Positions 38,989 to 53,015 of a DNA stretch of 64,000 nt are shown here, piece after piece. The position numbers and the translations under genes are program-made. The notes under the pieces are model-generated. The model searched no databases, was not told the DNA's origin, and saw only the letters and a program-made list of their open reading frames with translations. The stretch's first letter is position 1. Each line of letters begins with the position of its first letter. Location: positions 8,614,501-8,678,500 of the forward strand of contig NZ_JACHNC010000001.1 of the NCBI RefSeq assembly GCF_014205215.1. The letters are read 5' to 3'. The DNA is from Actinoplanes lobatus (lineage in GTDB: Bacteria > Actinomycetota > Actinomycetes > Mycobacteriales > Micromonosporaceae).

Positions 38989-40011
38989 TCAGTCCAGCAG
39001 ATCGGAGAGGGTCAGATGGGCCACCTGACGGGCGTTCGGCAGGCCGCGTTCGGCGACCATCCGGCCGATGGACGTGATGGTGCCGCGGGCGGAGACGCCG
39101 CGGCTCACCTCCTCCAGTTCCTCTTTGAGCCGGGCGGCGACCCGTTTCTGGTCAGTGTGCGTGAGGTCGGCGCAGGTGTAGACGAGAGCGAGCAGCTCCC
39201 GGCGGAGGCGGTCCAGCCGTTCGGTCTCCCCACGGGCGGCCGCCTCCCTGGCCGCCTGGAACAGCTCGTCCAGCTGCGGGAAGATCCAGTCGTCCCGGTT
39301 CCGGGTCGCCTGGATCTCGATCAGCAGATAGTCGAGGCCGTCGAGCGGGGCGCCGTGGTGAGTCAGCCGCCCGTCGGCGTAGGCCAGGCCGTTGACGTCG
39401 AAGGCGGCGGCCGGCGTGTTGATCACGACGATGTGCCCGGGGCGGAGCGCGCCAGTCGCACTGTCGGCGGCGTAGTCCTTGTCGAGGACCAGCACCGGCC
39501 CGGAGCCGGCGTCCTCGATCGCCGCCTCGACCCGGTCGATGCCCTTGGCGAGTTGCTCGCCCAGACCCGCCACCGAGGCCAGCGCGGGCGCGGCTGCCGA
39601 GGTAAGGGCACCGATCACCTCCATCGCCAGGCGCAACGAGTCGTTCGCCTTGATCGCGTAGAGGCAGGCCTGCACCGACACGGTCCCGCCGGAATAGGGA
39701 AACCAGCCGGTCAGCGCACCGGAGCGGACGCCCTGCGCCTCCTGGCCGGGTTCCGCCTGCCACACCGTGGACCGAACACCCCGCAGCCCGTCCGGCCGCG
39801 TCATGGCAACCGAGGCGCGCAGCGCGGGCAGTACGTCGGCGCCCTGGCGGCGGGCCTCCGCGATGAACAGGTCGCCGATCCACAACCGAAGGTAGCTGTC
39901 CCGCGGCACCGGTTCGGCGCTGGCTGTCGGCAGAAAGTGGTAGACCATGTGCTCGGCATCGCGGCTCCACCAGTGCCGAACGCGGTCACGAAGGTTATCC
40001 AGTGCCGTCAT
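38989..40011 (-). CDS. Unknown protein, last gene of the CHAT-STAND operon
   Basis: A 340-residue protein whose ATG lies 17 bp inside the end of the STAND gene, so it is translationally coupled. I recognise no family. The N-terminal 100 residues look globular (HMVYHFLPTASAEP, LRLWIGDLFIAEARRQGADVLPALRAS). Residues about 115-165 hold a moderately hydrophobic, Ala-rich helix (LAMEVIGALTSAAAPALASVAGLGEQL). Residues 175-235 form a strand-rich part (GPVLVLDKDY, HIVVINTPAAAFDVNGLAYADGRL), and the last 100 form long helices with DQKRVAARLKEELEEVS. Being last in a protease/ATPase operon, it could be the effector or substrate of the CHAT protease. That is inference. Confidence 0.7.
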   Translation of the reverse strand: MTALDNLRDRVRHWWSRDAEHMVYHFLPTASAEPVPRDSYLRLWIGDLFIAEARRQGADVLPALRASVAMTRPDGLRGVRSTVWQAEPGQEAQGVRSGALTGWFPYSGGTVSVQACLYAIKANDSLRLAMEVIGALTSAAAPALASVAGLGEQLAKGIDRVEAAIEDAGSGPVLVLDKDYAADSATGALRPGHIVVINTPAAAFDVNGLAYADGRLTHHGAPLDGLDYLLIEIQATRNRDDWIFPQLDELFQAAREAAARGETERLDRLRRELLALVYTCADLTHTDQKRVAARLKEELEEVSRGVSARGTITSIGRMVAERGLPNARQVAHLTLSDLLD

Positions 40012-43000
40012 CGGGTTCTCCTCTCAGAAATAGGACGACTTGTCCTCTGCTCGGTTCGGTGCTGTCCCGGGCGCTGTCGGCCAGCGCCATCAGGTCCATG
40101 GCGCGGGGGCGGCCGGGCCGGTCGTTCAAGTCGGCGGCCCGGTCGGCGATCCGGTCGGCGACCTCCGGCGACGGCTGGGGCAGCAGCAGCAGGTTGCGGA
40201 CACCGGCGGCCATGCATCGCACGGCCAGGCGCAGCGCGTCGATGTCCCGCACGTTGGCCGGTTCCTCACCCACCGGCGTAGTGGTACGCAGCACGATGGC
40301 GCAGGCGTTCAGCCGGGCCATATCGGCGGGGGTCATGATCTGCCGAGTGACCTGGTCGACGAAGCGGACCTCAGAGTGGTTCCGCCCGACCCCACCTTCC
40401 AGAACCCGTACCGGCGGGCCATCGGGGCGGCCTTCGGACGGCGCCGCCGGGACGGCCGCCACGCCCAGCGGCCACGCCCGGTACCAGCGCGGCATCACGG
40501 CATCGTCGGGCAGGCCGAGCCGCTCGGTGATCTCGGCCTCCCAGAAGCGCACCTGGTCGCCGAGTTGCAGGACCAGCCGCCACAGCCGGGGCGGATTCTC
40601 CCCGGCCATGGCCCGCATCGAGGCCGACAGGTCCGGCACCGCGTCGCCGGCCCCCATCCGGACGGCCCCGAACGGGCCCATTCCGGCGGCGCCACGCCAG
40701 CGTTCCCGGCCGGTGCTGAGCACCAGCTTGCGGGGCCGCGGCAGCACCTGCACGGTCAGCCGTGGGATCCGGCGGAACCGGGCCTGCATGGCGACCAGCG
40801 ACAGCCGCAGACGGTCCGAGCCGTCCAGCCGGGGCACGACGAACTTCGCGCCGCCCCGGTCCGCGACGGTCTCGGCCACGGCACCGAACCTGGTGGGGTA
40901 CAGCTCGACCGACCGGACGGCGGGGGCGGTCGGTGGCCCGTGGCCGGAGCGCCCGGCCAGCGCGGTGATCGCCACCCGTAGCCGGATCAGCCACCCGAAC
41001 CACGGATGGTCCGGGTCCGGCGGGGCGCCGGTCAGCGCCGCCCATTCCGGCAACTCGCCACCGAGATGCTCCCGCATCCGGGTGTAGGCGATGTTCAGCC
41101 CGAGTACCAGCGAGCGAGTGGTGAGGTCGCTGTGGTCGGCGCCCCCGTGCACGTGGGCCAGCGCCGCCAGGGTCGCGGCCTGGAAGGCGAGCACCGGGCT
41201 GCGCGACTCGCTGAGCCCGGCGGCCAGGTTGAGCAGCGGCTTCGCGCCCACCGGGTCGCGCAGGGCCCGCTGCTCGCCGAGTTCCAGCGCCGCGACGGCC
41301 ACGAAGAGCGGCGGATGAGCCGGATTGGCCTCACGGAACCGGTCCAGCTTCGCCGGGGTGGCCACGGCCAGCTCCAGGTGCATGGCGTCCAGCGGGGCAG
41401 CCGCCACCGGATCATCCGGTTCGGCGGTGGGCAGCACCCGTACCCGCGCCAGCGTCTGCTCGGCGTCGGCGCCCGCACCGCCCGCGGCGGCCTCCCGCAG
41501 ATCGGCGACGAGCAGTTCCCGCAGGCCGGGGCCGACAGGGCCGGGCTGCTCGGGCAGCGGTGGGAGGGTGACCGTCGCGGTCCGCGGGTCGACGCTGAGC
41601 GCCTGCCAATGGTGGTGCCAGCGAACGATCGATTCGCGCGCCGACCCGGGTGGCGGTGGCGTCCCGTCGGTCAGCGCCCGGGCCGCCCACTCCCTGCCGG
41701 CCAGGTCGGGTGCGGCCTGCTCGGGCAGGCCGGCCGGCAGGGTGCGGCGCATCCGGCGGCTCAGCCACAGCAGCCCGGCGGCGGCCGACCGGGTGGCCTC
41801 CTCGTCACCCTGTTCGTGCGCCCGTCCGAGGGCGCTGTCCAGCATCCGCTGCGCGCTGCCGATGTCGCCGAGCACCAGGTAGGCGTAGCCCAGGCTCTGG
41901 AACAGCGGCGGAATGAGCCGGTGCACCCGCAGCCGGGGAACGGCCCGATCGGTGGGGCCGGCCAGCGGACGCAGACGGTCGAGGTGGTCGCGGGCCACCG
42001 TCCCGTGACCGAGCCGCAGATGCAGGCAGACCGACAGCAGCCGGTCGCTGTCCACCGTCGCCGATCGAGCCTCAGCGTCGCGTTCCCACTGCTGCAAGGG
42101 CAGTTCCCGCAACGGCGCCCCGCTCAGGTAGGCACGTGCGGCCAGGTGCAGGTTGAGCCGGATCAGGACGCTCGGCGGGGCGATCCAGTCCGGCCACGGG
42201 TCGACACCCACCGGCGCCTCGCGTGCCGCCCGGTCCAGGTCGCGGACGTCCAGCGGATGCTCGGGCCCGCCCTGGGTGAGGCGGTACACGGCGAGCCGTG
42301 CGCAGATGGTGGTCACCGGGTCGGTGTCGACGGGCAGCCAGTCGTGCACGGCGGCGGCGATCGGCTCCAGACGGGGTCCGGCCTCCGTGACCTCGGCGAT
42401 CGCTTCGATGACCGCGACCACCCCACCGGTCAGACGGCGCTCGTGCTCGAGGGTGTCGCGGATCAGCGTGGTGGTTTCCGCGACCGCGTCCGGGGCGGCC
42501 ATGGCTTCCCGAGCGGTGGCCGCCAGGACGCCCAGCCGGGCACGCAGCCGCAGCCGTTCGGCGGCCCACCCGGTACGGTCGCCGACGAGACGCAGCACGG
42601 CCCGCCATTCCCCGGCCCGGTCGAATGCGGCGCCGGAGCGTGCCGCCACCGCGACGGCGGTGGCCCGGACGGCCGCGAGGAGCAGATCGTCGGGCGGCTC
42701 GGTGCCCTCCGGCTCGCCGTCCCGGCGCCGCCCCTCGGGGATCTTCGCCTCGGCCAGGGCGCCCAGCACCCGCGGACAGAGCCGGCTCATCCAGGCCCAG
42801 TCACCCGCTGTGCCCATCCGTGCCTCCAGTCGCTCCCACAGCCGGACGGCGACGACCGGTGCGGCGAGCCGGATCGCGGAGACCACGTTGGCGACGCTGA
42901 GCTGCTCCAGCGGCCGGGTCTCCAGTTGCGCGCCCAGCGCCACGGCGAGGTTGCGGCGGACCGTGGCGAGCTTCTCCTCGGCCAGCCCGTGCGCCCAGAC

Positions 43001-44668
43001 CCGCAGCAGCGGCAGCATCGAGGCGTGCACCTCGAGGACCTGGCCCTCACCCGCCGGGTCGGGGCGCGCGTCGATCCAGTCCTGTCGGGCGAACTCCGCG
43101 ATCACCGCCTCGACATCGCTCTGGTCGCGGATCACCGACTCCAGCGTCCGGCCATCGAAGGTCCCGAGCAGGGCGACCGCCGGCAGCGCGCCGACCGACC
43201 AGCGCTGGGTCAGCCGTCCCACGATGCGCTCCTGGACGTACGCCGACCGCCCCGACAACCGCAACTGCTCGTCGGTGATGTCCTTCTCGGAGGCCCACCA
43301 CTGGCGGTAGAGGCGTACGTCGAACGGGCTGAACCGTCGGCCGGAGCGGTCCGGTGGCTCGGCGTGCTCGGGCGAGAGGGTCAGGATCGCCTCGACCAGC
43401 GACGCCGGCATGACCACCCCGTCGTCGGGGCGGGTCAGGTAGCGGGTCGCCTCTTCCTCGTTGAACCCGCGTGCCCGGACGGTACGCATGCTCACCCCGG
43501 AGCCGGGCTCCATCGGGCGGCGGCCGCACAGAAGCACCCGCACGCTGGGCAGCCCTCGGTGCACCGCTGCCAGCACCTCGAAGGTCGCCGCCACGGCCGC
43601 ATCCGGGGCGCCGGCCGGGTCGGCGCGGGACAGTTCCTCACAGGTGTCGAGGATCAGCAGGACCCGGCCGGACAGCTCGGTCAGGAACCGGACGAAGGCC
43701 CGCAACGCGTCAGCGGTGGCCACGACACCGGCCGGTCCGGTCGCCTCATCGGCGACGTACGCCAGCCGGTAGAACTCGGCCCGGGCCTCCTCTGCGGCGC
43801 CGGTTCGCACCTCGGACGCCAGCTCGTGGGCGAACTCGGTCAGCAGGTGGGCCGGCCGCCGTGCCGGGTACTCCGGGCTGAGCAGGTCGAAGTCCACCCG
43901 CCCCACGGTGATCTGGGGCAGGCCGGTGTGCTCGGCGAAGTCACCGGACGCGACGTACCGGACGAACGAGGTCTTGCCGGTCCCGCCCGTACCGATCAGA
44001 TGCATCGCCCACTCCCGGCCGTCGCCGTTGAGCAACGTGCGCAGCTCGGCGGTCCACGCGGAGCGTGGTTGATACTCGCGAAGCGAGTGCCGGTCGTGTG
44101 CCCGCCGGTTGGCCAGGCGCACCAGCCGCCGTGCCGCCTCCACCGCCTCACCGAAGGCGGGCCGCGCCACCGGTTCGAAGATCTCCGCAGCGGTGATGTG
44201 CGCTTGCGCCTCGGACACGTGGTAGGAACGGCACAGCTCACGGACCCGGTCGAGGAACCGCCGCTCCGGATGCCCGGCACCGTCCGTGATCGCCAGGTCG
44301 ATCCAGTTGCGCATCACCGGATCCAGCGGGACGTCCAGGTCGAGGGCCTGGAGCCGGCCGGCGATCAGGCGTGCCTCGGCGGCCAGGGCCGGCCCGCCCA
44401 GCATGCTCACCGCCGCCTCCAGCACGGCCCGCCGCTGCGCCGTGGTGTGCCAGAACTCGGTGAGCCAGAGCTGGTCCGGCTTCAACGTCCCGTTGCGCTG
44501 CGCCACACCCCGCTGCTCCCAGTGGTGGACGAGTTCACCGAGTCGGTCGAAGTAGTCCTGCTCGTCGCCGGGGTCGGCCGCCGGGAAGCCGGTGGCCAGC
44601 GCCGACTCGCCGGTCCAGGACGGGGCCAGCGCCAGCCACAGTGCCGGGTCGTGGGCCGCGGCGGTCAC
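39995..44668 (-). CDS. Giant STAND/NACHT-like ATPase with helical repeats and degenerate CHAT-like C-terminus
   Basis: A 1557-residue protein starting at a GTG that overlaps the CHAT gene's stop (GTGA). Residues 1-200 form an unassigned helical domain. The NTPase core has Walker A LIGTGGTGKTSF (226-233), Walker B VLLILDTCEEL (about 330-340) and the sensor-like VRVLLCGRRPMEPG. A helical region of about 600-1230 is rich in TPR-like pairs (FQSLGYAYLVLGDIGSAQRML). The last 300 residues follow the strand/helix order of CHAT proteases (ITPADMARLNACAIVL..., LAVRCMAAGVRNLLLLPQPSPEVADRI), but the Cys site reads RTTTPVG and no His-Gly pair is seen. It is probably a signal-sensing scaffold that activates the CHAT protease encoded upstream. 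Confidence 0.85.
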   Translation of the reverse strand: MTAAAHDPALWLALAPSWTGESALATGFPAADPGDEQDYFDRLGELVHHWEQRGVAQRNGTLKPDQLWLTEFWHTTAQRRAVLEAAVSMLGGPALAAEARLIAGRLQALDLDVPLDPVMRNWIDLAITDGAGHPERRFLDRVRELCRSYHVSEAQAHITAAEIFEPVARPAFGEAVEAARRLVRLANRRAHDRHSLREYQPRSAWTAELRTLLNGDGREWAMHLIGTGGTGKTSFVRYVASGDFAEHTGLPQITVGRVDFDLLSPEYPARRPAHLLTEFAHELASEVRTGAAEEARAEFYRLAYVADEATGPAGVVATADALRAFVRFLTELSGRVLLILDTCEELSRADPAGAPDAAVAATFEVLAAVHRGLPSVRVLLCGRRPMEPGSGVSMRTVRARGFNEEEATRYLTRPDDGVVMPASLVEAILTLSPEHAEPPDRSGRRFSPFDVRLYRQWWASEKDITDEQLRLSGRSAYVQERIVGRLTQRWSVGALPAVALLGTFDGRTLESVIRDQSDVEAVIAEFARQDWIDARPDPAGEGQVLEVHASMLPLLRVWAHGLAEEKLATVRRNLAVALGAQLETRPLEQLSVANVVSAIRLAAPVVAVRLWERLEARMGTAGDWAWMSRLCPRVLGALAEAKIPEGRRRDGEPEGTEPPDDLLLAAVRATAVAVAARSGAAFDRAGEWRAVLRLVGDRTGWAAERLRLRARLGVLAATAREAMAAPDAVAETTTLIRDTLEHERRLTGGVVAVIEAIAEVTEAGPRLEPIAAAVHDWLPVDTDPVTTICARLAVYRLTQGGPEHPLDVRDLDRAAREAPVGVDPWPDWIAPPSVLIRLNLHLAARAYLSGAPLRELPLQQWERDAEARSATVDSDRLLSVCLHLRLGHGTVARDHLDRLRPLAGPTDRAVPRLRVHRLIPPLFQSLGYAYLVLGDIGSAQRMLDSALGRAHEQGDEEATRSAAAGLLWLSRRMRRTLPAGLPEQAAPDLAGREWAARALTDGTPPPPGSARESIVRWHHHWQALSVDPRTATVTLPPLPEQPGPVGPGLRELLVADLREAAAGGAGADAEQTLARVRVLPTAEPDDPVAAAPLDAMHLELAVATPAKLDRFREANPAHPPLFVAVAALELGEQRALRDPVGAKPLLNLAAGLSESRSPVLAFQAATLAALAHVHGGADHSDLTTRSLVLGLNIAYTRMREHLGGELPEWAALTGAPPDPDHPWFGWLIRLRVAITALAGRSGHGPPTAPAVRSVELYPTRFGAVAETVADRGGAKFVVPRLDGSDRLRLSLVAMQARFRRIPRLTVQVLPRPRKLVLSTGRERWRGAAGMGPFGAVRMGAGDAVPDLSASMRAMAGENPPRLWRLVLQLGDQVRFWEAEITERLGLPDDAVMPRWYRAWPLGVAAVPAAPSEGRPDGPPVRVLEGGVGRNHSEVRFVDQVTRQIMTPADMARLNACAIVLRTTTPVGEEPANVRDIDALRLAVRCMAAGVRNLLLLPQPSPEVADRIADRAADLNDRPGRPRAMDLMALADSARDSTEPSRGQVVLFLRGEPDDGTG

Positions 44669-46899
44669 ACCGGGCTCCCCGACGCCGGATAGTGCTCCAG
44701 GACGGCGTCGTCGTTGTCTTCCTCGAGGACCTTCTGCGACATCCCGGCGCGGGTGATCGAGGCCATCAGCTTCGCCGAATAGATCTCGCTGGTTCCACTG
44801 GTCTGCTCCCGTACCAGCTCCGCCCACTCGCCCTCCCGGTCGGCAACCACCGTGAGCGGCCGGGTGTGCCGGCCGTCGAGGGTCGGCAGTCGATGCATGA
44901 GCAGCCATCGCCAGGCGGCCGCCACGAAGTCCGGGTGCCCCTCCGGGGTCATCTGCTGGAACAGCATGACCGCCGCGGTACGCGCCCAGGCCTGATCCCG
45001 CAACGCCCTTGTCAGGCGCGACTCCCCACCGGCCGACCGGGTCCGCGGGTCCTTGGTGAAGACGACCACCGGGATCTTGTCACGGGACTCGCGGTCGATG
45101 TTCTCGGCGGACACCCCGCGAGAGGACAGCAGGCTCCCCAGCTGCACGAACAGGTGCGGCACCTCCTGCGGGTCGTCGAGCAGCAGAATCGGTCGGCCGG
45201 ACGCCGGGAACAGACCCGGGTACGCCTTCTGCGCCGCGGTCGCCATGGCCAGCAGGTCCTCCCGGATCCACGCGGCCAGCTCGTCGACGAAACCCTCCGG
45301 GTCCTCGGCCCCGAGCGCCGGGCGGAGCCGTTTCGCGCGCACCGCCGTGCACTGGCGGCGCGGCGGCAGCATCGCGTCGACCTTCTCCCGGCCGGCCTCG
45401 TCCTCGATGCCGGTCAGGATGGCGCTGGTGAAGTCGACGTCGAGGTCGAGCTCGGCCCGGGTGGCGCAGATCGCGCAGAGCACGTCGATGGCGAGCTGGG
45501 CGGCGTTGCGCGGTTCCCGTCCCGGGGAGAAGGTGACGTTGCACGGGATGTGGCCGGCCCGCAGCGAGGCTCCGGCCAGCTCCCGCAGCAGCCGGGTGCC
45601 ACCCGGACGGGCGTCCGCGCCGGGCCCCTCGGCGACCAGCACGGCAAGCTGGTCACGCGGGTCGAGCAGATGGTCCAACAGGTCGAAGAACTCGTCGCGG
45701 GCGTGGAAGACGGGCGCGCACACCGGGCCCAGCCGAAGCAGGAACTCCCGCAGTTCCCGGGTCTCCCGGTCGTCGATGACCCGGAAGTCGGCCGGTACGT
45801 CGGTGGCCATGAAGACGGCCGGCAGCGCCCAGTCGATCTCGCCGCCGTGCAGCCGGGAGAAGGCCAGCCGCCGGGCCTCGGCCGTCGCGAGGTGGAGCGG
45901 CTTGCCCTTGACCACGGCGGCCGCGAACGCGCGGGCGAACGTACGGCACGCGGTGTTGGAGATCCGGCCGGTCATGGAGACGACGATCGGCACCCCGGCG
46001 TCGACCAGCTCGGCGGCGATCGCGGCGCTGCCCGGCCGGGTGCTGCCACTCTCGCAGGCGCTGAGGATCACCATGAGGGGCAGCGTGCCGGCCGCCCGCA
46101 TCGCACCCGCGAGCGCCCGGGCATTGACGTGGTCGACGTCGTCGGTGTGCGCCGTGCCGGGTTCCGCCCGCAGCTGCACGGTGTTCTCGGCCAGTTCCGG
46201 GTGCCACGAGCCGTGCGCGATCAGGTGCAGGACGTGCGGCCGGACGTCACCGCAGGCACGTTCCAGCCCGTCCAGCGTGATCTGCGCCCGTACCCGGAAG
46301 TCGATCAGCGAGCAGGTCCGGTCGTACCCCCGGATGATGGTCATCACCTCGGTGCCGGCCCGCACCTGCGGATCGTGCAGCTCGCTGCCGACCGCGAAGA
46401 GCATTCGCGCGGTCCCGGTCACCGGGCGGACCTCCCGGTCCTCCTCGCCGGGACGGGTGGCGATCCCGCGGACGATCATGACGGGGTGCGACGGGTCCTG
46501 TGCGAGGAACTCGCCGTCGTCGTCCGGGTCGTGCAGCAGCTCCCAGGTCAGTCGATGCAGGTCGGCGTCGTCCGGCGGAAACCGCAGTTCCAGTTCCTCC
46601 GGGTGTGTTCCCGCGCCGGACAGCAGCTCCCATCCCTGCTGGCCGAGCAGGGTCTGGAACAGGAAGCGACCGTACGCCCGGGTGGTGGCCAGAGTGGGCG
46701 TGTCCTCGGCCAGGCTCCCGGTGAGCCGCAGCAGGATGTCCAGCTCGTCGTCGGTGGCGGACGGCCACCATCGGCCCGTCTCGTCCGGGCGCGCCGGCAT
46801 CCTCCTGGTCAGCTCGGCGCCGTCCACCGCGGTCACACGCACCGGCCAGTGCGGGACGCCGGTGCCGGCCCGGCGTTCCACGGTCACGATCGCCCTCAC
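44665..46899 (-). CDS. CHAT-domain protease with degenerate ATPase-like C-terminal half
   Basis: A 744-residue protein starting at a GTG that overlaps the metallopeptidase stop (GTGA). The CHAT caspase-like domain spans about 60-370: WELLHDPDDDGEFLA, the catalytic His in HVLHLIAHGSWHP (His229), the catalytic Cys in LMVILSACESGSTRPGS (Cys282), then VPIVVSMTGRIS and ATAEARRLAFS. Residues 395-744 look like a P-loop NTPase that has lost Walker A: VAEGPGADARPGGTRLLREL at 422-441 replaces GxxGxGKT, while ILLLDD (571-576) remains as Walker B. CHAT proteases cut partners such as gasdermins, Csx30 or separin-type targets. The adjacent genes are the candidate partners here. Confidence 0.9.
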   Translation of the reverse strand: MRAIVTVERRAGTGVPHWPVRVTAVDGAELTRRMPARPDETGRWWPSATDDELDILLRLTGSLAEDTPTLATTRAYGRFLFQTLLGQQGWELLSGAGTHPEELELRFPPDDADLHRLTWELLHDPDDDGEFLAQDPSHPVMIVRGIATRPGEEDREVRPVTGTARMLFAVGSELHDPQVRAGTEVMTIIRGYDRTCSLIDFRVRAQITLDGLERACGDVRPHVLHLIAHGSWHPELAENTVQLRAEPGTAHTDDVDHVNARALAGAMRAAGTLPLMVILSACESGSTRPGSAAIAAELVDAGVPIVVSMTGRISNTACRTFARAFAAAVVKGKPLHLATAEARRLAFSRLHGGEIDWALPAVFMATDVPADFRVIDDRETRELREFLLRLGPVCAPVFHARDEFFDLLDHLLDPRDQLAVLVAEGPGADARPGGTRLLRELAGASLRAGHIPCNVTFSPGREPRNAAQLAIDVLCAICATRAELDLDVDFTSAILTGIEDEAGREKVDAMLPPRRQCTAVRAKRLRPALGAEDPEGFVDELAAWIREDLLAMATAAQKAYPGLFPASGRPILLLDDPQEVPHLFVQLGSLLSSRGVSAENIDRESRDKIPVVVFTKDPRTRSAGGESRLTRALRDQAWARTAAVMLFQQMTPEGHPDFVAAAWRWLLMHRLPTLDGRHTRPLTVVADREGEWAELVREQTSGTSEIYSAKLMASITRAGMSQKVLEEDNDDAVLEHYPASGSPV

Positions 46900-48245
46900 C
46901 AGGCGTCGCTCCGCAGATCGTCCAGCACCTGCCTCGTCACCGCCGCGGCCTGCCGCTGCGGCCGGACGCCGACGTGACGGACGCTCTTCGGCCGGCTCTG
47001 CGGCAGGACCCGCAGCAGCCGCCGACGCAGCCGTTCGCGATCTTCGGCCCCGCCCGGCCCGGCCGTGGTGCGCCGCCATGCCATGGTGCCGCCCGCGACA
47101 CAGAGCCGGGCCGACTCCGGCGCCGTCCCGGCCGCCGGCTCGGTCGCACCCAGCAGCGCATCACGCCACCGCCGGGCGGTCCGCTCCCAGTCACGGCTAC
47201 GGACACCGATCTCGCGCAGCGTCGTGCCGCCGAACCGGATGCCGAGCAGCGCGCCGGCAATCGTCTCGGCGCGGGCCGCGTGCCCGGCGAACGGCGACCC
47301 GGCCAGCAGCGCCCGGTCGGCGGCCGGCACCACACCGGCCAGGCCGATCCCGGCGACCACCGCGTCGGCGACGCACCACCGCAACGCCGGCGGCGGGTAG
47401 CGGATGTCCGGCCTCAGCAGGGTGTCGGGCGTGCCCCGCTCCAGCTCCATCACCGACCACATGGGCGCGGTCCCCTTGGTGACCGCCGCGGTGGCGTCGG
47501 CGAACAGTTCCATCGCCCAGTTCCGCCACTCCCGCTGTTCGGCGTCGCCCGCGCCGGCCCGGGCCGCCGCCGCACCGAGGACCTCCGGCGGTGACCCGGA
47601 GCCGTCGTCGTCCTCGCCCACCTCGGCCGCGACCTGGTGCCCGCACTCGTGGGCGAGGACGACCAGCCACCATGGGCGGCGGGTGACGGTCGACGGCAGC
47701 GCGATCGTGGACAGCGGCATCATCGTCGTCCACCTGGCCAGCACCGGCTCGGCCGGGACGCACAGGTCCAGCGGTACCTCGTAACGGGCGGTGGACACGG
47801 CCGTGTCGATCGGGGCCACATGCGGCAGCGGGGTCGGCGGCCGGGTCGCGGCGTCCGGGAACAGGGCCTGCCAGGTGCTGTGGACGATCTCGTCCGCGGC
47901 GGCCAGCGTCGGCCGGTAGTCGTCGTGGTGCCGCTGGTCGAGGCGGTCGCCGTACCAGCGCCAGAACCGCCGCAGCAAGGCGGTCCGGTGGTCGGCGCGG
48001 CGGCACTGTTCGTAGAGCTCGCCGCCCGTCGCTCCGGTCGTCTGTTCGAGCAGATCGTGGCGCACCTGTGCGATCCCGGTTTCGGCTATCTCCGCCAGCA
48101 ACGACATCTGGTCGAGATATTGACCCTGCGGGCCGAGCTGCCGGGCGGAAACCGCCCATTCGGCAACGTCGTCGCGGAACTCGTCGAGATCTGAAATCGA
48201 TTCCTCAAGCCGGAACCGGATGGCTGCCTGCTGCACGCCGGCCAC
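46896..48245 (-). CDS. Zinc metallopeptidase-like protein (HECGH), first gene of the CHAT-STAND operon
   Basis: A 449-residue protein starting at GTG. LVVLAHECGHQVAAEVGE carries HExxH (199-203), and NWAMELFADA at 242-251 gives a Glu at the spacing of a third zinc ligand, so it should be a gluzincin-type metallopeptidase. The N-terminal 190 residues are helical, with several Trp/His-rich segments (RRFWRWYGDRLDQRHHDDY). The C-terminal 150 residues are Arg-rich and may be non-catalytic. No signal peptide or membrane helix is seen, so it probably acts in the cytoplasm. It leads an operon whose next gene overlaps by 4 bp. A role in processing or regulating the CHAT/STAND partners is inferred. Confidence 0.82.
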   Translation of the reverse strand: MAGVQQAAIRFRLEESISDLDEFRDDVAEWAVSARQLGPQGQYLDQMSLLAEIAETGIAQVRHDLLEQTTGATGGELYEQCRRADHRTALLRRFWRWYGDRLDQRHHDDYRPTLAAADEIVHSTWQALFPDAATRPPTPLPHVAPIDTAVSTARYEVPLDLCVPAEPVLARWTTMMPLSTIALPSTVTRRPWWLVVLAHECGHQVAAEVGEDDDGSGSPPEVLGAAAARAGAGDAEQREWRNWAMELFADATAAVTKGTAPMWSVMELERGTPDTLLRPDIRYPPPALRWCVADAVVAGIGLAGVVPAADRALLAGSPFAGHAARAETIAGALLGIRFGGTTLREIGVRSRDWERTARRWRDALLGATEPAAGTAPESARLCVAGGTMAWRRTTAGPGGAEDRERLRRRLLRVLPQSRPKSVRHVGVRPQRQAAAVTRQVLDDLRSDAW

Positions 48246-48531
48246 GATAAGGCCCTGTACGTGTGATGTTGACGGCCTGTTTGTCCGTCGTTCCGGGGCT
48301 TGCCGAACGTTCCCCTCTATGGGTTAGACATTCCGGCCGGAAAGGTTGTCCTGCAGGTCAGAAGCTGAGGTCGGAACCGGTCCAAGAATGATCATCCCAA
48401 ACGGTGACATTGCAATGTGCCCGCCCGGGAGCGAACTATGGCCTGGTGCCACCCGTATACGTCATCATGAAATTCCGCGGGACCTTAGCCGTCGCTTCAG
48501 CTATGTCGGCCACGTGAGCTGGAGGAAATTC
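48246..48531. promoter_or_regulatory. Divergent promoter region between the CHAT and STAND operons
   Basis: The 286-bp gap separates the start of the metallopeptidase (48245, minus) from the ATG of the first membrane STAND gene (48532, plus). It is more AT-rich than the genes. It contains stretches such as GGTTAGACATTCC and ATGATCATCCC, but I find no convincing palindrome or -35/-10 pair. Open frames continue upstream from 48532 without a ribosome site and are probably not translated. Confidence 0.4.
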
Positions 48532-50748
48532 ATGAGTCCAACGTGGCGCGAGAATTTCTCGCGAAATGCCGATCGGGTCGTCGCCGCCATTCTCCGGGCC
48601 CGGTGGGCCCCCCACATTCTTGCGGGCGGCGCGCTCCTGACAATTCTGGTCCGCGTCCGCGTCTCCCCCAGCCCGATCCATTGGTTCTCCTTCGGCATGC
48701 TGGTGGTCGCTGTCTCCCTGCTCGTCCTGCTGACCTGGCTCTACCGGCGACGGCCCCCGGCCCGCGACTATCTCGTACCGTCGGCGCTCGCCGCCATGCC
48801 CCCGGTCTTCGTCGGGCGCACCACCGAGATGAACCAACTCGACGCCTGCCTCAGCGACCCCCGCGGCCTCCGCGTCGCGGTGATAGCCGGCCCCAACGGC
48901 ATCGGAAAGACCGCCCTCGCCGCGGTCGCCGCCACCCGGCTCGCCGCCCGCTACCCGGGCGGTACCCTCTTCGGCGACCTGAGCCGGGAGCCACACGTCG
49001 CCAGCGGCAGGCGCAACGACGACGACATCGTCCGCGACGTTCTCGGCGCCTTCGTGACCGGGCTCGGAAGACCGGATCTCCCCGTCCACACCGCCCTCGA
49101 CGAACAGTTCAGGGACCTTGCGGCGCGATACCGCCCGGTCGTGGTCCTCGACGACGCCGACGACCCGGAACTCGTCCGGCGGCTGCTGCCGTCCGGCGCC
49201 GACTGTGCCGTGCTGGTCACCACCGCGAACGGCGCCGCGTTCGACGGCCACGGCTGGCCCGTCCTGGAGCTGCAGCCGCTCGCCGAGGAACAGTCCATGG
49301 ACCTGATCCGGGCCATGGTGTCGGCGACCTGGGTCGATGACGACGAGACCTGCCGCCGCATCGTCCGGGCGATGCACGGGCACCCCAACGCCCTCCGCCT
49401 GACGGCCACCCAGCTGGCCAGCCGGAGCGGTTCGCACGCGGACGCCATCCGGCGCATCTACAGCGACCCGGTCACCACCCTGTCCGCCCTGCGCCACGGC
49501 GGCGCCGTCACCGTCGCGCTCCAGGTCAGCTACAACCTGCTCGGCGACGACGAACGACGGGGGCTGCGCCTGATCGGCTGCCTGGACCGCGTCTCCTTCC
49601 CGCTGTCAGCGCTGGCTCCCCTGATCGGCGCCGACGAGGCCGAGACGCTACGCGTGGTCGACCGGCTGCTGGTCGCCGGCTTCCTGTCCCGCAACAGCAC
49701 CGACCCGCTCGGCGTGCCGGTCTACCGGGTCAGCGAGGACGTGCTGCTGTTCGCTCGGCAGAAGTTCCAGGAGGAGAGCAAACCGGCCGACCGCAGGCGG
49801 CTGGAGCGCCGCCGCGGCGAACCGGCCGCCGACATCGCCGGGCCGATCGCCGAGGCGCGGACCCTGCTGGAGGCCGGCCAGCTGCGGCGGGCGCTGGTCA
49901 CCGCGCGGCGTGCCGTGGAACTGGCCCGCGCCACCGTCGGCCGGCCCGTCGACCTCGCCCTGGCCACCCTGGCAGAGGTGCGGGTGGAGTCCGGGGTGGC
50001 CGGCCCGTTGCGCGACTTCGTGCCGGCCGGCCTGATCGACCGCTCGCTGCCCCAGGTCGCCACGTACCGGGCTCGCCGATGCGCCGCCGTGCTGGCGATG
50101 CGCTGCCGTGACGAGGACGCCGCCCGGCGGCTCCTGGCGTCGATCGTCGACCAGTGCGACCCCTCCAAACCCGGCGAGGACGAGGAACTCGTCCTCGCGC
50201 TGCTCGAGACGGCCCGGCTGGAGAGCCGCCGCGACGTGGATCTGGGTCTCGCCTCCGTCGAACGGGCGGCACGGATCTGCGACGACCTTCCGGACGATGG
50301 CATCGACCTGCGGGCCCGCCTGCATCGCGCCTACGGGCGGGTGTACGGCCGGGCCGCCCAGCCCGTCAAGGCGCGCTGGGCGGTCCAGGAGGCCGAACGG
50401 TGGGCTCTGCGCCGCGGCCAGCACCTGCGGCTCGCATGGATCGCCTATGACCGTGCCAAACTGGCCCAACCGGACGCGACCTCCGAGGAGGCGTTCCGCT
50501 ACGCCCGCGACGCGCTCTACGCGTTCTCCGACATGGAGCACCGGTACGGCCGTGGCCGCGCCGCCCTGCTGCTGGCCGAACTGCACCGGGCCGCCGCCGA
50601 CCGGCAGGCCGCGCACGCCGACGGCCACCGCCGCCGGGCGCACATGCACTGGCAGGAGGCCCGCGACGAACTGTCCGAATGCGGCGATGACGCGGCCGAG
50701 CGCGCCCGGGAGCGGCTCGCCACACCCCCGTTCGCCGAAATGCGATGA
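48532..50748 (+). CDS. Membrane-anchored NB-ARC/STAND ATPase with helical repeats (1)
   Basis: A 738-residue protein starting at ATG 48532 (GGAGG upstream). Two hydrophobic segments at about 28-44 and 51-71 anchor the N-terminus. The NB-ARC core begins with PPVFVGRTTEMNQLDACL, then Walker A VIAGPNGIGKTALA (120-127), Walker B RPVVVLDDADDPE, sensor CAVLVTTANG and the GHPNALRL site. A winged-helix region follows (LRLIGCLDRVSFPLSALAPLIG), then TPR-like helices to the end. No DNA-binding or toxic effector domain is visible, so the membrane anchor itself or the partner gene may carry output. Its stop overlaps the next start (ATGA). Confidence 0.88.
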   Translation: MSPTWRENFSRNADRVVAAILRARWAPHILAGGALLTILVRVRVSPSPIHWFSFGMLVVAVSLLVLLTWLYRRRPPARDYLVPSALAAMPPVFVGRTTEMNQLDACLSDPRGLRVAVIAGPNGIGKTALAAVAATRLAARYPGGTLFGDLSREPHVASGRRNDDDIVRDVLGAFVTGLGRPDLPVHTALDEQFRDLAARYRPVVVLDDADDPELVRRLLPSGADCAVLVTTANGAAFDGHGWPVLELQPLAEEQSMDLIRAMVSATWVDDDETCRRIVRAMHGHPNALRLTATQLASRSGSHADAIRRIYSDPVTTLSALRHGGAVTVALQVSYNLLGDDERRGLRLIGCLDRVSFPLSALAPLIGADEAETLRVVDRLLVAGFLSRNSTDPLGVPVYRVSEDVLLFARQKFQEESKPADRRRLERRRGEPAADIAGPIAEARTLLEAGQLRRALVTARRAVELARATVGRPVDLALATLAEVRVESGVAGPLRDFVPAGLIDRSLPQVATYRARRCAAVLAMRCRDEDAARRLLASIVDQCDPSKPGEDEELVLALLETARLESRRDVDLGLASVERAARICDDLPDDGIDLRARLHRAYGRVYGRAAQPVKARWAVQEAERWALRRGQHLRLAWIAYDRAKLAQPDATSEEAFRYARDALYAFSDMEHRYGRGRAALLLAELHRAAADRQAAHADGHRRRAHMHWQEARDELSECGDDAAERARERLATPPFAEMR

Positions 50749-53015
50749 AGAGAGCCTGGTCCCGGCGCCTGCGTCGCCGCTCGACGGCGGTGTTCCCCCT
50801 GCTCCTGGCGCTGGTCGCGGTCACCGGGGCGTGGCAGGGGACCTGGCGGTCGGTGCTGCTCGCGGGCATCCAGGTTCTGCTCGCCGCGGCCGTCACGACG
50901 GTCCTGCTCTGGCCGGACCGGCCGCCCCGACCGGCGCGGCGCCCCGCCGAGGACCGGCTCGTCGGCCGGGAGTCCGACCTGTTCCAGGTGGTCAGACTCC
51001 TCGACGAACCACGGGAGACCGGCGCGCCGGCGGCGCCCAAGGCGGTCCTGATCCACGGGATGCCGGGCGTCGGCAAGACCACCCTCGCCCGGCGGGCCGC
51101 CGAGGACGTGGCCCGGCACTACCCGGATGGGCTGGTACGGGTCAGCCTCACCGACGCCGGCGAGCCGGTGGCCAGCGGCGACCTGCTCACCATGGTGTTG
51201 CAGAAGTTGGCGTGGGCGTACGAGATCCCGGCGACCACCGGCGAGCGGGTCAGCCTGTTCCGGGCTCTGGTCTCCGGCCGCAGCATCCTGTTCGTCTTCG
51301 ATGACGCCCGTGAACCGTCGCAGCTGACCGAGCTGCTGCCGAACGCGCCCGGCTCGCTGATCATCATCACCAGCCGCCGGAACCTGTCACCGCAGCTCAA
51401 CGTGCATGGTTTCGCTCTCGAACCACTATCCCCGTGGGCGGCGCTCGACCTGCTGTGCACGGTCACCGACCTGGACGGGTTCACCGCGGTCGAGTCGAGC
51501 GTACGGCTCGTCGAGGCGTGCGGCCGACTACCCGCCGCGTTGCGGGCCCTCGGCGCGCGGGTCGTCGACGAGGACGCCGACCTGGCCACGCTGAGCCCGG
51601 AGTCGATCGCCGCCGACCTGGGTCGTGCCAGCCGGCCACGCTGGGCGACCGCGGCGGTGGCCGGCATCGCCGCCGAGTTCGGCCGTCTGAGCCGCCTGGA
51701 GCGCGACGCGCTCTGCCTGCTCACCCAGGTACGGTCGTCGTCATTCGCCTCCTGGGTACTGGGACCGCTGCTGCGGCTCAGCGCCGCCAAGAGCGATGTG
51801 ATCGCCACGACGCTGGCCGGGGCGCGGCTGCTCGAACCGGCCGGGCGGGACGACCGGTTCGAGTTGGCCCGCTACCGGTTCCACCCGCTGGTCCGGACGT
51901 TCGCCGAGGCCCACCTCAATCAGGACGCGGATCTCGCGTCGACCTGCCGGGACGCCGTCGACCGGCTGCGCGCCGTCTACCTCGAACTGGCCCGGTCGGC
52001 GCTGGACGGCAGCGCCCAGCACCCGCTGCCCGGCCTGGAGACGGCCCACCACTGGATCCCGGAGACGTCGCCGCGGGCCGGGGACGCCGACTGTCTCAGC
52101 TGGATCCGCTTCGAGCAGGAGAGCCTGTGGGAGGAGGTGCCGGCGCTGCTCGACAAGGACCGCGATTTCGCGTTGCGGCTGGTGGCCGGCTTCACCCGTC
52201 CGCACCCGGCGGCCGAGGTGGTCGCCGCCCGCACCGGGTGGGCCGAGATCGCCCCGTCACCGGATCTCACGTTCGACTATCTGCTGGCCCACGTACGGAT
52301 CGGCCTGATCGCCGGGCGCTACGAACAGTGCGAGACGGTGATCGAGAACGCCCGGACACGGAACCGTCCGGAGCCGCCGCAACGGCGGGCCCAGATGCAC
52401 CTGGCAGCCGCTGAGGTCTACGGCGAGCTCGGCTGGGCACACCGGGCGAAACGGCACGTGGACGCATGCGAGACGCTGGCCGGGGCGGACGGCGATCCCG
52501 CTCTGCTGGCCCGGCTGGAGACCGCCCGGCAACTCGCCGACCTGTATTCGGACGGGCCGCTTCCGGACGATTCCTACTGGGCGGCGACCGTGTCGGCGGC
52601 CCGTCATCACGCTCATCAGCGGTACCGCAACGTCATCGACGACCTGGATCCGGAGGCCACCCGCGAGGACGCCCACGACACCGGCGACGATCACCGCCGG
52701 ACGATGCTGCACAGGCGGCTCGCCCAGGCGAACTGGGAGCTGCACGACCAGCCCCGGGCCGACGTGCGCGCCGCCCTGCTCGCCGCGGCCCGGCACGCGA
52801 TGCTGGCGGTGCTCGCCGCGGAGAGCACCGGCAACCGCTGGGAGCAGGCACGCGGCCGGCTGCTGCTGGCCCGGGCGCTGACCGCGCACGGCCGTGACGA
52901 GGACGCCTGCGCCCAGAAGCACCTGGCCGAGAAGCTGATCGCGGACGGAGGACGGCCACCGCCGTACCTGACGGTCGACGATCCGCTGTGGGCGGTGCCG
53001 GGGCTTGTCGGCTGA
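50745..53015 (+). CDS. Membrane-anchored NB-ARC/STAND ATPase with helical repeats (2)
   Basis: A 756-residue paralogue of the preceding gene, coupled to it by an ATGA overlap. Two N-terminal membrane helices (about 14-30 and 36-55) follow a very basic first 13 residues. The nucleotide-binding part has RLVGRESDLFQVVRLL, Walker A LIHGMPGVGKTTLAR (105-112), Walker B ILFVFDDAREP, sensor SLIIITSRRN, and a divergent GxP site (GRLPAALRALG). The rest is helical, TPR-like. Two tandem, non-identical STAND proteins anchored in the same membrane suggest a hetero-oligomeric receptor. Its gene ends 1 bp before the end of the converging polytopic membrane protein. Confidence 0.88.
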   Translation: MKRAWSRRLRRRSTAVFPLLLALVAVTGAWQGTWRSVLLAGIQVLLAAAVTTVLLWPDRPPRPARRPAEDRLVGRESDLFQVVRLLDEPRETGAPAAPKAVLIHGMPGVGKTTLARRAAEDVARHYPDGLVRVSLTDAGEPVASGDLLTMVLQKLAWAYEIPATTGERVSLFRALVSGRSILFVFDDAREPSQLTELLPNAPGSLIIITSRRNLSPQLNVHGFALEPLSPWAALDLLCTVTDLDGFTAVESSVRLVEACGRLPAALRALGARVVDEDADLATLSPESIAADLGRASRPRWATAAVAGIAAEFGRLSRLERDALCLLTQVRSSSFASWVLGPLLRLSAAKSDVIATTLAGARLLEPAGRDDRFELARYRFHPLVRTFAEAHLNQDADLASTCRDAVDRLRAVYLELARSALDGSAQHPLPGLETAHHWIPETSPRAGDADCLSWIRFEQESLWEEVPALLDKDRDFALRLVAGFTRPHPAAEVVAARTGWAEIAPSPDLTFDYLLAHVRIGLIAGRYEQCETVIENARTRNRPEPPQRRAQMHLAAAEVYGELGWAHRAKRHVDACETLAGADGDPALLARLETARQLADLYSDGPLPDDSYWAATVSAARHHAHQRYRNVIDDLDPEATREDAHDTGDDHRRTMLHRRLAQANWELHDQPRADVRAALLAAARHAMLAVLAAESTGNRWEQARGRLLLARALTAHGRDEDACAQKHLAEKLIADGGRPPPYLTVDDPLWAVPGLVG

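Follow-up and report, generated by a model that had tools for sequence, protein, structure and literature searches.

What is the role of an operon that places two proteases of different classes beside a giant STAND NTPase and a protein without a Pfam family? Such an operon lies in a 64,000-nucleotide stretch of the 10.4 Mb genome of Actinoplanes lobatus (contig NZ_JACHNC010000001.1, positions 8,614,501 to 8,678,500), hereafter the window. Its four genes encode a zincin-type metallopeptidase (MET), a CHAT protease, the STAND protein and a member of a rare family (UNK). Based on the analyses described below, the operon is probably a bacterial self-destruct or immunity switch whose logic is related to that of animal inflammasomes.

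Organization of the operon

The four genes occupy the following positions of the window:

46896..48245, minus strand: MET, zincin-type metallopeptidase, 449 residues, GTG start; open reading frame with HECGH at residues 199-203 and ELFAD at 246-250
44665..46899, minus strand: CHAT protease, 744 residues, GTG start; CHAT domain at residues 76-345 with His229 and Cys282; at about 397-656 a putative ORC/STAND-like ATPase domain with a decayed P-loop (GGTR)
39995..44668, minus strand: STAND/NLR-like NTPase, 1557 residues, GTG start; Walker A GTGGTGKT at residue 226, Walker B LLILDT at 337; long C-terminal region
38989..40011, minus strand: UNK, 340 residues; open reading frame, rare family without a Pfam family

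A preliminary description, made from the sequence alone, had reported four minus-strand genes that overlap at every junction. All four open reading frames were recovered where it had placed them, and the overlaps are 4 bp (MET/CHAT), 4 bp (CHAT/STAND) and 17 bp (STAND/UNK). The longest open reading frames of the CHAT and STAND genes span 804 and 1637 residues, versus 744 and 1557 from the GTG starts. Genes in the loci retrieved for comparison were called using a simple GC-position script tuned to high-GC genomes, such that their starts are approximate. Genome searches scored the best few candidates per genome; absences are accordingly soft.

Catalytic and nucleotide-binding motifs

The description of MET as a zincin with an HECGH motif held up. 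Residues His199, Glu200, His203, Glu246 and Asp250 are invariant in all eight aligned rows, the window included, and Glu246 is likely the third ligand of the zinc site. The HExGH and ExFAD motifs occur in 8 of 8 MET rows and in 11 of 11 once relatives are added. At the level of sequence, MET has the HExxH of a zincin and a likely downstream third ligand. Profile matches were sparse: the window protein matches no Pfam family, Zn_peptidase matches one of seven rows of the MET alignment (2.5e-4), and the PADLOC profile peptidase_U41, without a match in the window's own MET, recognises four of ten zincin relatives (best 4.4e-11). A PDB sequence search with the zincin returned nothing at E <= 10.

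The CHAT protein matches Pfam CHAT (PF12770) at 5e-21, with 75.8 bits versus a cut-off of 24. Its His229 and Cys282, noted as intact from the outset, are invariant in 8 of 8 aligned rows, and its nearest solved structure is SAVED-CHAT. Moderate evidence from sequence profiles and a structural model points to a second, ATPase-like domain at about residues 397-656, in which the P-loop has decayed. Elsewhere in the source genome there is a second CHAT gene of 753 residues, and no STAND or zincin was recognised within 20 kb around it. A solitary CHAT gene of the source genome (L014, 7383-12014) lies amid what appear by eye to be copies of a gene of about 356 residues.

The STAND protein matches AAA_16 (1.2e-5) and NACHT (1.5e-4), both under the Pfam cut-offs; for NACHT, the score is 22.1 bits versus 26.7. 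Its assignment as a STAND/NLR NTPase is based on the Walker A and B motifs. Among eleven aligned STAND proteins, five from operons of the window's kind and six from a related kind described below, the GKT, [LFV]DT (with the Walker B aspartate) and GR motifs are present in all. Walker A was found in nine of the ten loci of the window's kind. In the tenth, that of Frankia AgB32 (L042, also retrieved as L035), the STAND frame is split into two open reading frames (L035, 1394-6971), reflecting either a decayed gene or an error of draft assembly.

The presence of two proteases in one operon would also suit peptide maturation or protein quality control, with the proteases processing a peptide or damaged proteins under STAND control. 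Conflict systems of actinobacteria are reported to include zincin-type peptidases that process FxSxx peptides (PMC7159879). Against this role, the overlaps leave no space between the four genes for a small precursor gene. Moreover, a STAND gate of 1557 residues is unusual for maturation. We consider such a function very doubtful.

Distribution and linkage of the four genes

We evaluated the linkage of the genes in a draw of 394 genomes of the class. The UNK profile matched nine: the source genome, seven of the genus Frankia, and one other (G229). The MET profile matched 14, of which eight at E <= 1e-100 were the source genome and the same seven. UNK and the zincin thus share 8 of the 394 genomes, and the outcome that would have counted against the preliminary description, homologues found singly and unlinked, did not emerge. 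In two of the seven (G276, G402), UNK and MET lie on different short contigs, where linkage cannot be assessed. The phylum draw yielded UNK in 1 of 296 genomes, with only the top candidates per genome scored. Weak UNK matches in G024 (E 2.8e-4) and G058 (E 9.6e-4) have no other operon gene beside them. In one genome of the Frankia genus (G319:C435:8136-8285), a 50-residue piece of MET (profile positions 462-511) is possibly a remnant.

The MET profile picked out 15 of 67 genomes from the window's genus. Five of these matches reach E <= 1e-100; four of the five genomes (G000, G019, G043, G487) have the complete set, and the fifth is G016. Across the searches as a whole, the neighbourhoods of the MET matches in G001, G018, G319, G413 and G375 were left out. 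In G057 (L011, 7738-8888), no more than the opening part of MET (residues 12-88) and the closing part of UNK (226-333) survives, within 1.2 kb, seemingly the scar left by deletion of the operon.

A scan of species genomes using the UNK alignment yielded nine loci: Actinoplanes flavus, Microbispora hainanensis, Paractinoplanes rishiriensis and six Frankia. The co-occurrence in other actinobacteria that the preliminary description had proposed checking was found in seven of the nine, which contain all four genes; the remaining two (L043, L046) are 14-kb contigs with UNK and a partial STAND gene that then end. We therefore regard the four genes as a true conserved unit. Identity to the window, per aligned piece, is 66-87% in A. 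flavus and approximately 25-42% at the other loci, mostly near 30%. The Actinoplanes and Microbispora loci share the arrangement MET-CHAT-STAND-UNK, all on one strand. The HExGH motif and the CHAT His/Cys pair occur in 10 of 10 loci of the window's kind; one wrong-frame open reading frame (L033:5368-6570) was left out of one of the alignments.

A chance cluster of independently selected genes would explain a solitary MET in G016, for which none of the remaining three genes was detected in 20 kb, as well as a solitary, broken UNK relative in G229 and the Frankia UNK genes on the opposite strand. It is contradicted by the linkage: UNK and the zincin are held by the same genomes, the MET-CHAT-STAND order persists across families at roughly 30% identity, and G057 retains both ends of its deleted operon. 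We give chance almost no credence. As judged from the gene set and the motifs kept at about 30% identity in other genera, the cluster is beyond chance.

Related cores and plasmid carriage

Using MET alone to find relatives, we retrieved thirteen neighbourhoods. These included one complete set (L079) and the solitary MET of G016 (L078). Six (L081, L083, L085, L086, L088, L090) contain a small gene, then CHAT, then a STAND gene of 1555-1752 residues, with MET last. In the other five (L080, L082, L084, L087, L089), neither CHAT nor STAND was detected. By hhalign (probability 99.9, E 7.5e-34), the MET proteins of the window's kind belong to one family with these relatives. When five members of the window's kind were compared with six of the related kind, each of the 11 retained HExGH/ExFAD, the CHAT His and Cys, GKT and the Walker B Asp; in these rows, the CHAT and zincin residues, on which the earlier description could have foundered, are thus conserved without exception. 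In L081, L083 and L086, the product of the small first gene has a strongly hydrophobic segment; in L085, L090 and, in a shorter form, L088, it is a different, soluble-looking protein.

In the related operons, the C-terminal end of the STAND protein is a decayed CHAT domain (hhalign E 6.3e-7). The same assignment for the C-terminal domain of the window's STAND protein was rejected, the match being not significant (hhalign E 0.13). Weak matches to peptidoglycan-binding domains, below cut-off, were observed at STAND residues 1302-1334 of L085 (2e-4) and 1449-1492 of L081 (9e-4).

Several MET relatives keep other company. Those of L084, L087 and L089 are distant and sit in other clusters. In L080 (8350-10564) and L082 (8776-11038), the MET relative adjoins a gene of 270 residues; that of L080 matches Peptidase_M10/matrixin (1.9e-8), a pairing with a second metallopeptidase.

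Two conjugative plasmids carry related genes. That of Sinorhizobium terangae has the order CHAT-STAND-MET, and a gene for a C25-family cysteine peptidase is convergent to this operon (L092, 11419-12858). On that of Bradyrhizobium quebecense, MET is followed by two CHAT genes; the consecutive genes (L093, 8733-14376) are one resembling phospholipase D, the MET relative and the two CHAT genes, with patatin and S8 peptidase genes nearby. From the related operons and the order on the Sinorhizobium terangae plasmid, we therefore take the core to be CHAT, STAND and the zincin, with an exchangeable fourth gene.

These distributions bear on a developmental role, in which proteolysis would be regulated during mycelial development or sporulation in a HetF-like manner, the STAND protein integrating a growth signal and CHAT processing a differentiation regulator. 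The hosts Actinoplanes, Microbispora and Frankia are filamentous, sporulating genera, and the CHAT protein weakly matches NCBIfam HetF, a cyanobacterial CHAT protein (0.012). However, the complete set is present in just 4 of 67 genomes of the genus, and the related core is found on a Sinorhizobium conjugative plasmid. We judge this role unlikely.

The UNK family

The last protein of the operon had been described as unknown, and UNK has indeed no Pfam family. The window protein gave one chance-level match (DUF2062, 0.073), and for the nine UNK rows scanned versus Pfam all matches were at chance level. A PDB sequence search returned three weak rows only, and none of the PDB structures matched the structural model at E <= 0.001. 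We rejected a pore-forming role for UNK: its most hydrophobic stretch of 19 residues averages 1.69, too weak to support a membrane segment.

More distant relatives were identified stepwise. A protein encoded on a Sporomusa plasmid was linked to the window protein at 2e-5 and to the UNK profile by an hhalign probability of 99.2. Through it, a Pseudanabaena relative was reached (3e-17) and, through that in turn, relatives in Prosthecochloris (4e-31) and Rhizobium sp. TH2 (3e-5; profile probability 98.3). These plasmid genes (L091, L095, L096, L097) belong to Bacillota, Cyanobacteriota, Chlorobiota and Pseudomonadota, and no Pfam family was matched in the three that were scanned. Among viral contigs, 17 pattern matches included zero UNK relatives, and phage records held no match to the Sporomusa protein.

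Outside the operon, a cysteine peptidase is the next gene in three of five places, at 15-134 bp and in three other phyla, or three of the four plasmid genes. In Sporomusa, it is a papain-type peptidase gene (134 bp); in Pseudanabaena, a caspase gene (15 bp) in a cluster with a MoxR ATPase; and in Rhizobium sp. TH2, a CHAT gene (18 bp). No peptidase was recognised in the two scanned genes downstream of the Prosthecochloris relative, and none was spotted by eye around the solitary relative of G229, which contains an in-frame stop. The pairing with cysteine peptidase genes suggests that UNK is a substrate, inhibitor or effector of such peptidases.

Comparison with known systems

The closest likeness is to the CARD-NLR/LypABC systems of Lysobacter, Azospirillum and Caulobacter. 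These are tripartite, and LypABC of Caulobacter joins a protease whose ATPase domain is degenerate, an NLR-like ATPase bearing a long stretch of TPR-like repeats, and a second peptidase (PMC13236601). Lysis is reported to be abolished there by mutating peptidase and ATPase residues (PMC13236601). As described there, the CARD-NLR peptidases are trypsin-like serine peptidases and a CARD is present, whereas the Actinoplanes operon has a CHAT cysteine protease and a zincin. No trypsin-like serine peptidase was matched in the four operon proteins; Pfam detects no CARD in the CHAT protein, the first 75 residues of which were modelled at low confidence. The operon further adds UNK and, in some cases, a divergent pair of NB-ARC genes. 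Because its proteases belong to other classes, the operon is not a CARD-NLR member as defined, and we propose by analogy that it may work alike.

The shared logic of a protease with a pseudo-ATPase, an NLR-ATPase and a peptidase (PMC13236601) would also be consistent with a programme of host lysis or particle release, or of cell lysis for contractile injection systems. The model for particle release would be LypABC, which releases gene transfer agents. One of the 13 neighbourhoods bears on this: the distant zincin relative of L084 lies near genes that appear by eye to encode a contractile tail sheath and tube. The same neighbourhood includes a gene resembling that of an M20-type peptidase. However, no CHAT or STAND was detected beside this relative, and in the flanks of the operon itself, inspected without a gene-by-gene scan, particle genes were not recognised either. 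Lysis for release is distinctly improbable in our estimation.

Other known systems differ more. SAVED-CHAT is gated by cyclic nucleotide. Unlike in that protein, no SAVED domain was found in the operon's CHAT protein by Pfam, the PADLOC SAVED_CHAT match spans just residues 200-358, which is the CHAT part, the companion domain is ATPase-like and the partner is a STAND protein. TPR-CHAT Csx29 (Craspase) appears to differ in that Pfam finds no TPR in the operon's CHAT protein, in which the CHAT domain starts at residue 76, and in that no gRAMP-like protein is among the four operon proteins. The bNACHT and NLR-related defence proteins resemble the operon's STAND protein in having a NACHT/AAA_16-like NTPase and a long C-terminal region; they differ in that the operon's NACHT score is below the Pfam cut-off and its protease is a separate subunit.

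The STAND/VMAP/iSTAND systems of multicellular bacteria, as presented in two reports, combine caspase-superfamily peptidases with STAND NTPases and include inactive STAND domains (PMC7159879, PMC8195603). A further likeness is the UNK relative of the Pseudanabaena cluster with its MoxR and caspase genes. In contrast, no MoxR, vWA or EAD model matches the operon proteins, nor was a MoxR ATPase or vWA protein matched in six further window proteins scanned, and a zincin is present in every complete set found.

The preliminary description could not name the four-part combination, and we found no description of the gene set in searches of the open-access literature; most subscription papers and bioRxiv preprints are outside this coverage. 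Each part except UNK is of a known kind. The fixed set, the core zincin, the paired ATPase and CHAT folds, and the peptidase company of the UNK family look new.

A divergent pair of NB-ARC genes

Upstream of MET lie further features:

48246..48531, no strand: divergent intergenic region between MET and NB1, 286 bp
48532..50748, plus strand: NB1, 738 residues; N-terminal hydrophobic segment and NB-ARC/AAA_16; associated module
50745..53015, plus strand: NB2, 756 residues; N-terminal hydrophobic segment and NB-ARC; associated module; 4-bp overlap with NB1

NB1 and NB2 lie outside the coordinates of the preliminary description and were missed there. They overlap, are divergent from MET and match NB-ARC at 1.2e-6 (NB1) and 2.9e-12 (NB2). 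No sigma-70-type promoter or terminator pattern was found in 48246-48531. In A. flavus (G019), the pair is beside the operon in the same layout, at 78 and 84% identity, and the outer flanks are also shared. In G487, the layout is the same at 46 and 43% identity, and the other flanking genes retrieved do not correspond. At E <= 1e-40, NB1 was found in 4 of the 67 genus genomes: the source genome, A. flavus, G487 and G003.

Proposed function

We lean modestly towards the operon being a conflict or death system in which an NLR gates two proteases, an analogue of CARD-NLR/LypABC that uses other proteases. In such a system, the giant STAND protein would be an ATP-driven switch and scaffold. Once triggered, it would form an assembly with the CHAT protein by way of the ATPase-like domain that CHAT carries, and crowding (induced proximity) would activate the cysteine protease. 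Activated CHAT would then cleave a partner, most likely UNK and/or the zincin. MET would be a second protease, activated by CHAT or acting after it, and UNK would be a substrate or executioner. The activated output would arrest or kill the cell, halting phage or plasmid. In the Actinoplanes form, the two NB-ARC proteins, which are probably membrane-anchored, are candidate upstream receptors or helpers. The trigger, the assembly, the order of cleavage, UNK as substrate or effector, and the death output are all steps that we infer.

A role in conflict rather than in housekeeping is favoured by the patchy distribution, by the finding of the related core on a plasmid and by the NB-ARC genes next door. 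The conservation of the four-gene unit, the recurrence of the core with another fourth gene, the peptidase_U41 matches of zincin relatives, SAVED-CHAT as the nearest solved CHAT structure, the shared logic with LypABC and the cysteine peptidase genes next to UNK relatives also speak for the proposed system. In particular, a complete set in 4 of 67 genus genomes and UNK in 1 of 296 genomes of the phylum draw fit a conflict system.

Several points weigh against this reading. Of the 1557-residue STAND protein with TPR-like repeats described at the outset, the STAND motifs and the length stand and the repeats are unconfirmed: no TPR model of Pfam matches it at E <= 1, and TPR_21 matches the Sinorhizobium STAND relative weakly (0.025). 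The ATPase-like domain of the CHAT protein is based on sub-cut-off Pfam matches in relatives, an hhalign probability of 45 (E 2.2e-4) and one moderate structural match, for which the ORC-like part (397-656) was compared only inside the whole 744-residue model, with a warning from the tool that regions past residue 379 were barely tested. UNK has no trustworthy fold: AlphaFold on nine sequences, an alignment that left out L047 (which contains an X), gave a pLDDT (predicted local distance difference test score) of 47.5. All five Frankia loci with the complete set carry UNK on the opposite strand, pointing towards STAND.

The surroundings add to these points. PADLOC returned weak CHAT matches only for the four operon proteins (SAVED_CHAT 1.1e-5, chat 0.0018). 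Besides the NB-ARC pair, the scanned flanks encode an aldo/keto reductase, a helix-turn-helix regulator, a DNA ligase and one protein that falls in no family; the pair is the sole conflict-like flank among the genes scanned, a full defence scan of the window not having been run. In G003 (L103), a pair like NB1-NB2 occurs without any operon gene in 17 kb. Finally, the pair was not found in the stretches retrieved around the rishiriensis, Microbispora and Frankia operons, and for this reason we treat it as an associated module, not as core.

Beyond the NLR-gated conflict or death system itself, we tentatively raise the possibility, which we hold below even expectation, of a separate bacterial inflammasome-like class. 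It would have a constant core of CHAT, giant STAND and zincin, from Actinomycetota to Proteobacterial plasmids, with mirrored folds on the large subunits (active CHAT with decaying ATPase versus active ATPase with decayed CHAT). The exchangeable fourth subunit, be it UNK, the small membrane protein or the other soluble protein, would be the executioner, and the membrane-bound NB-ARC pair of Actinoplanes would be a second NLR tier.

If the proposed function is correct, NLR-gated protease immunity would extend to a pair of a cysteine and a zinc protease. The operon also draws attention, in UNK, to a family that has no Pfam entry and accompanies several kinds of cysteine peptidase. The locus is compact and clonable, and catalytic mutants could probe how bacterial NLR-like proteins switch on proteases.

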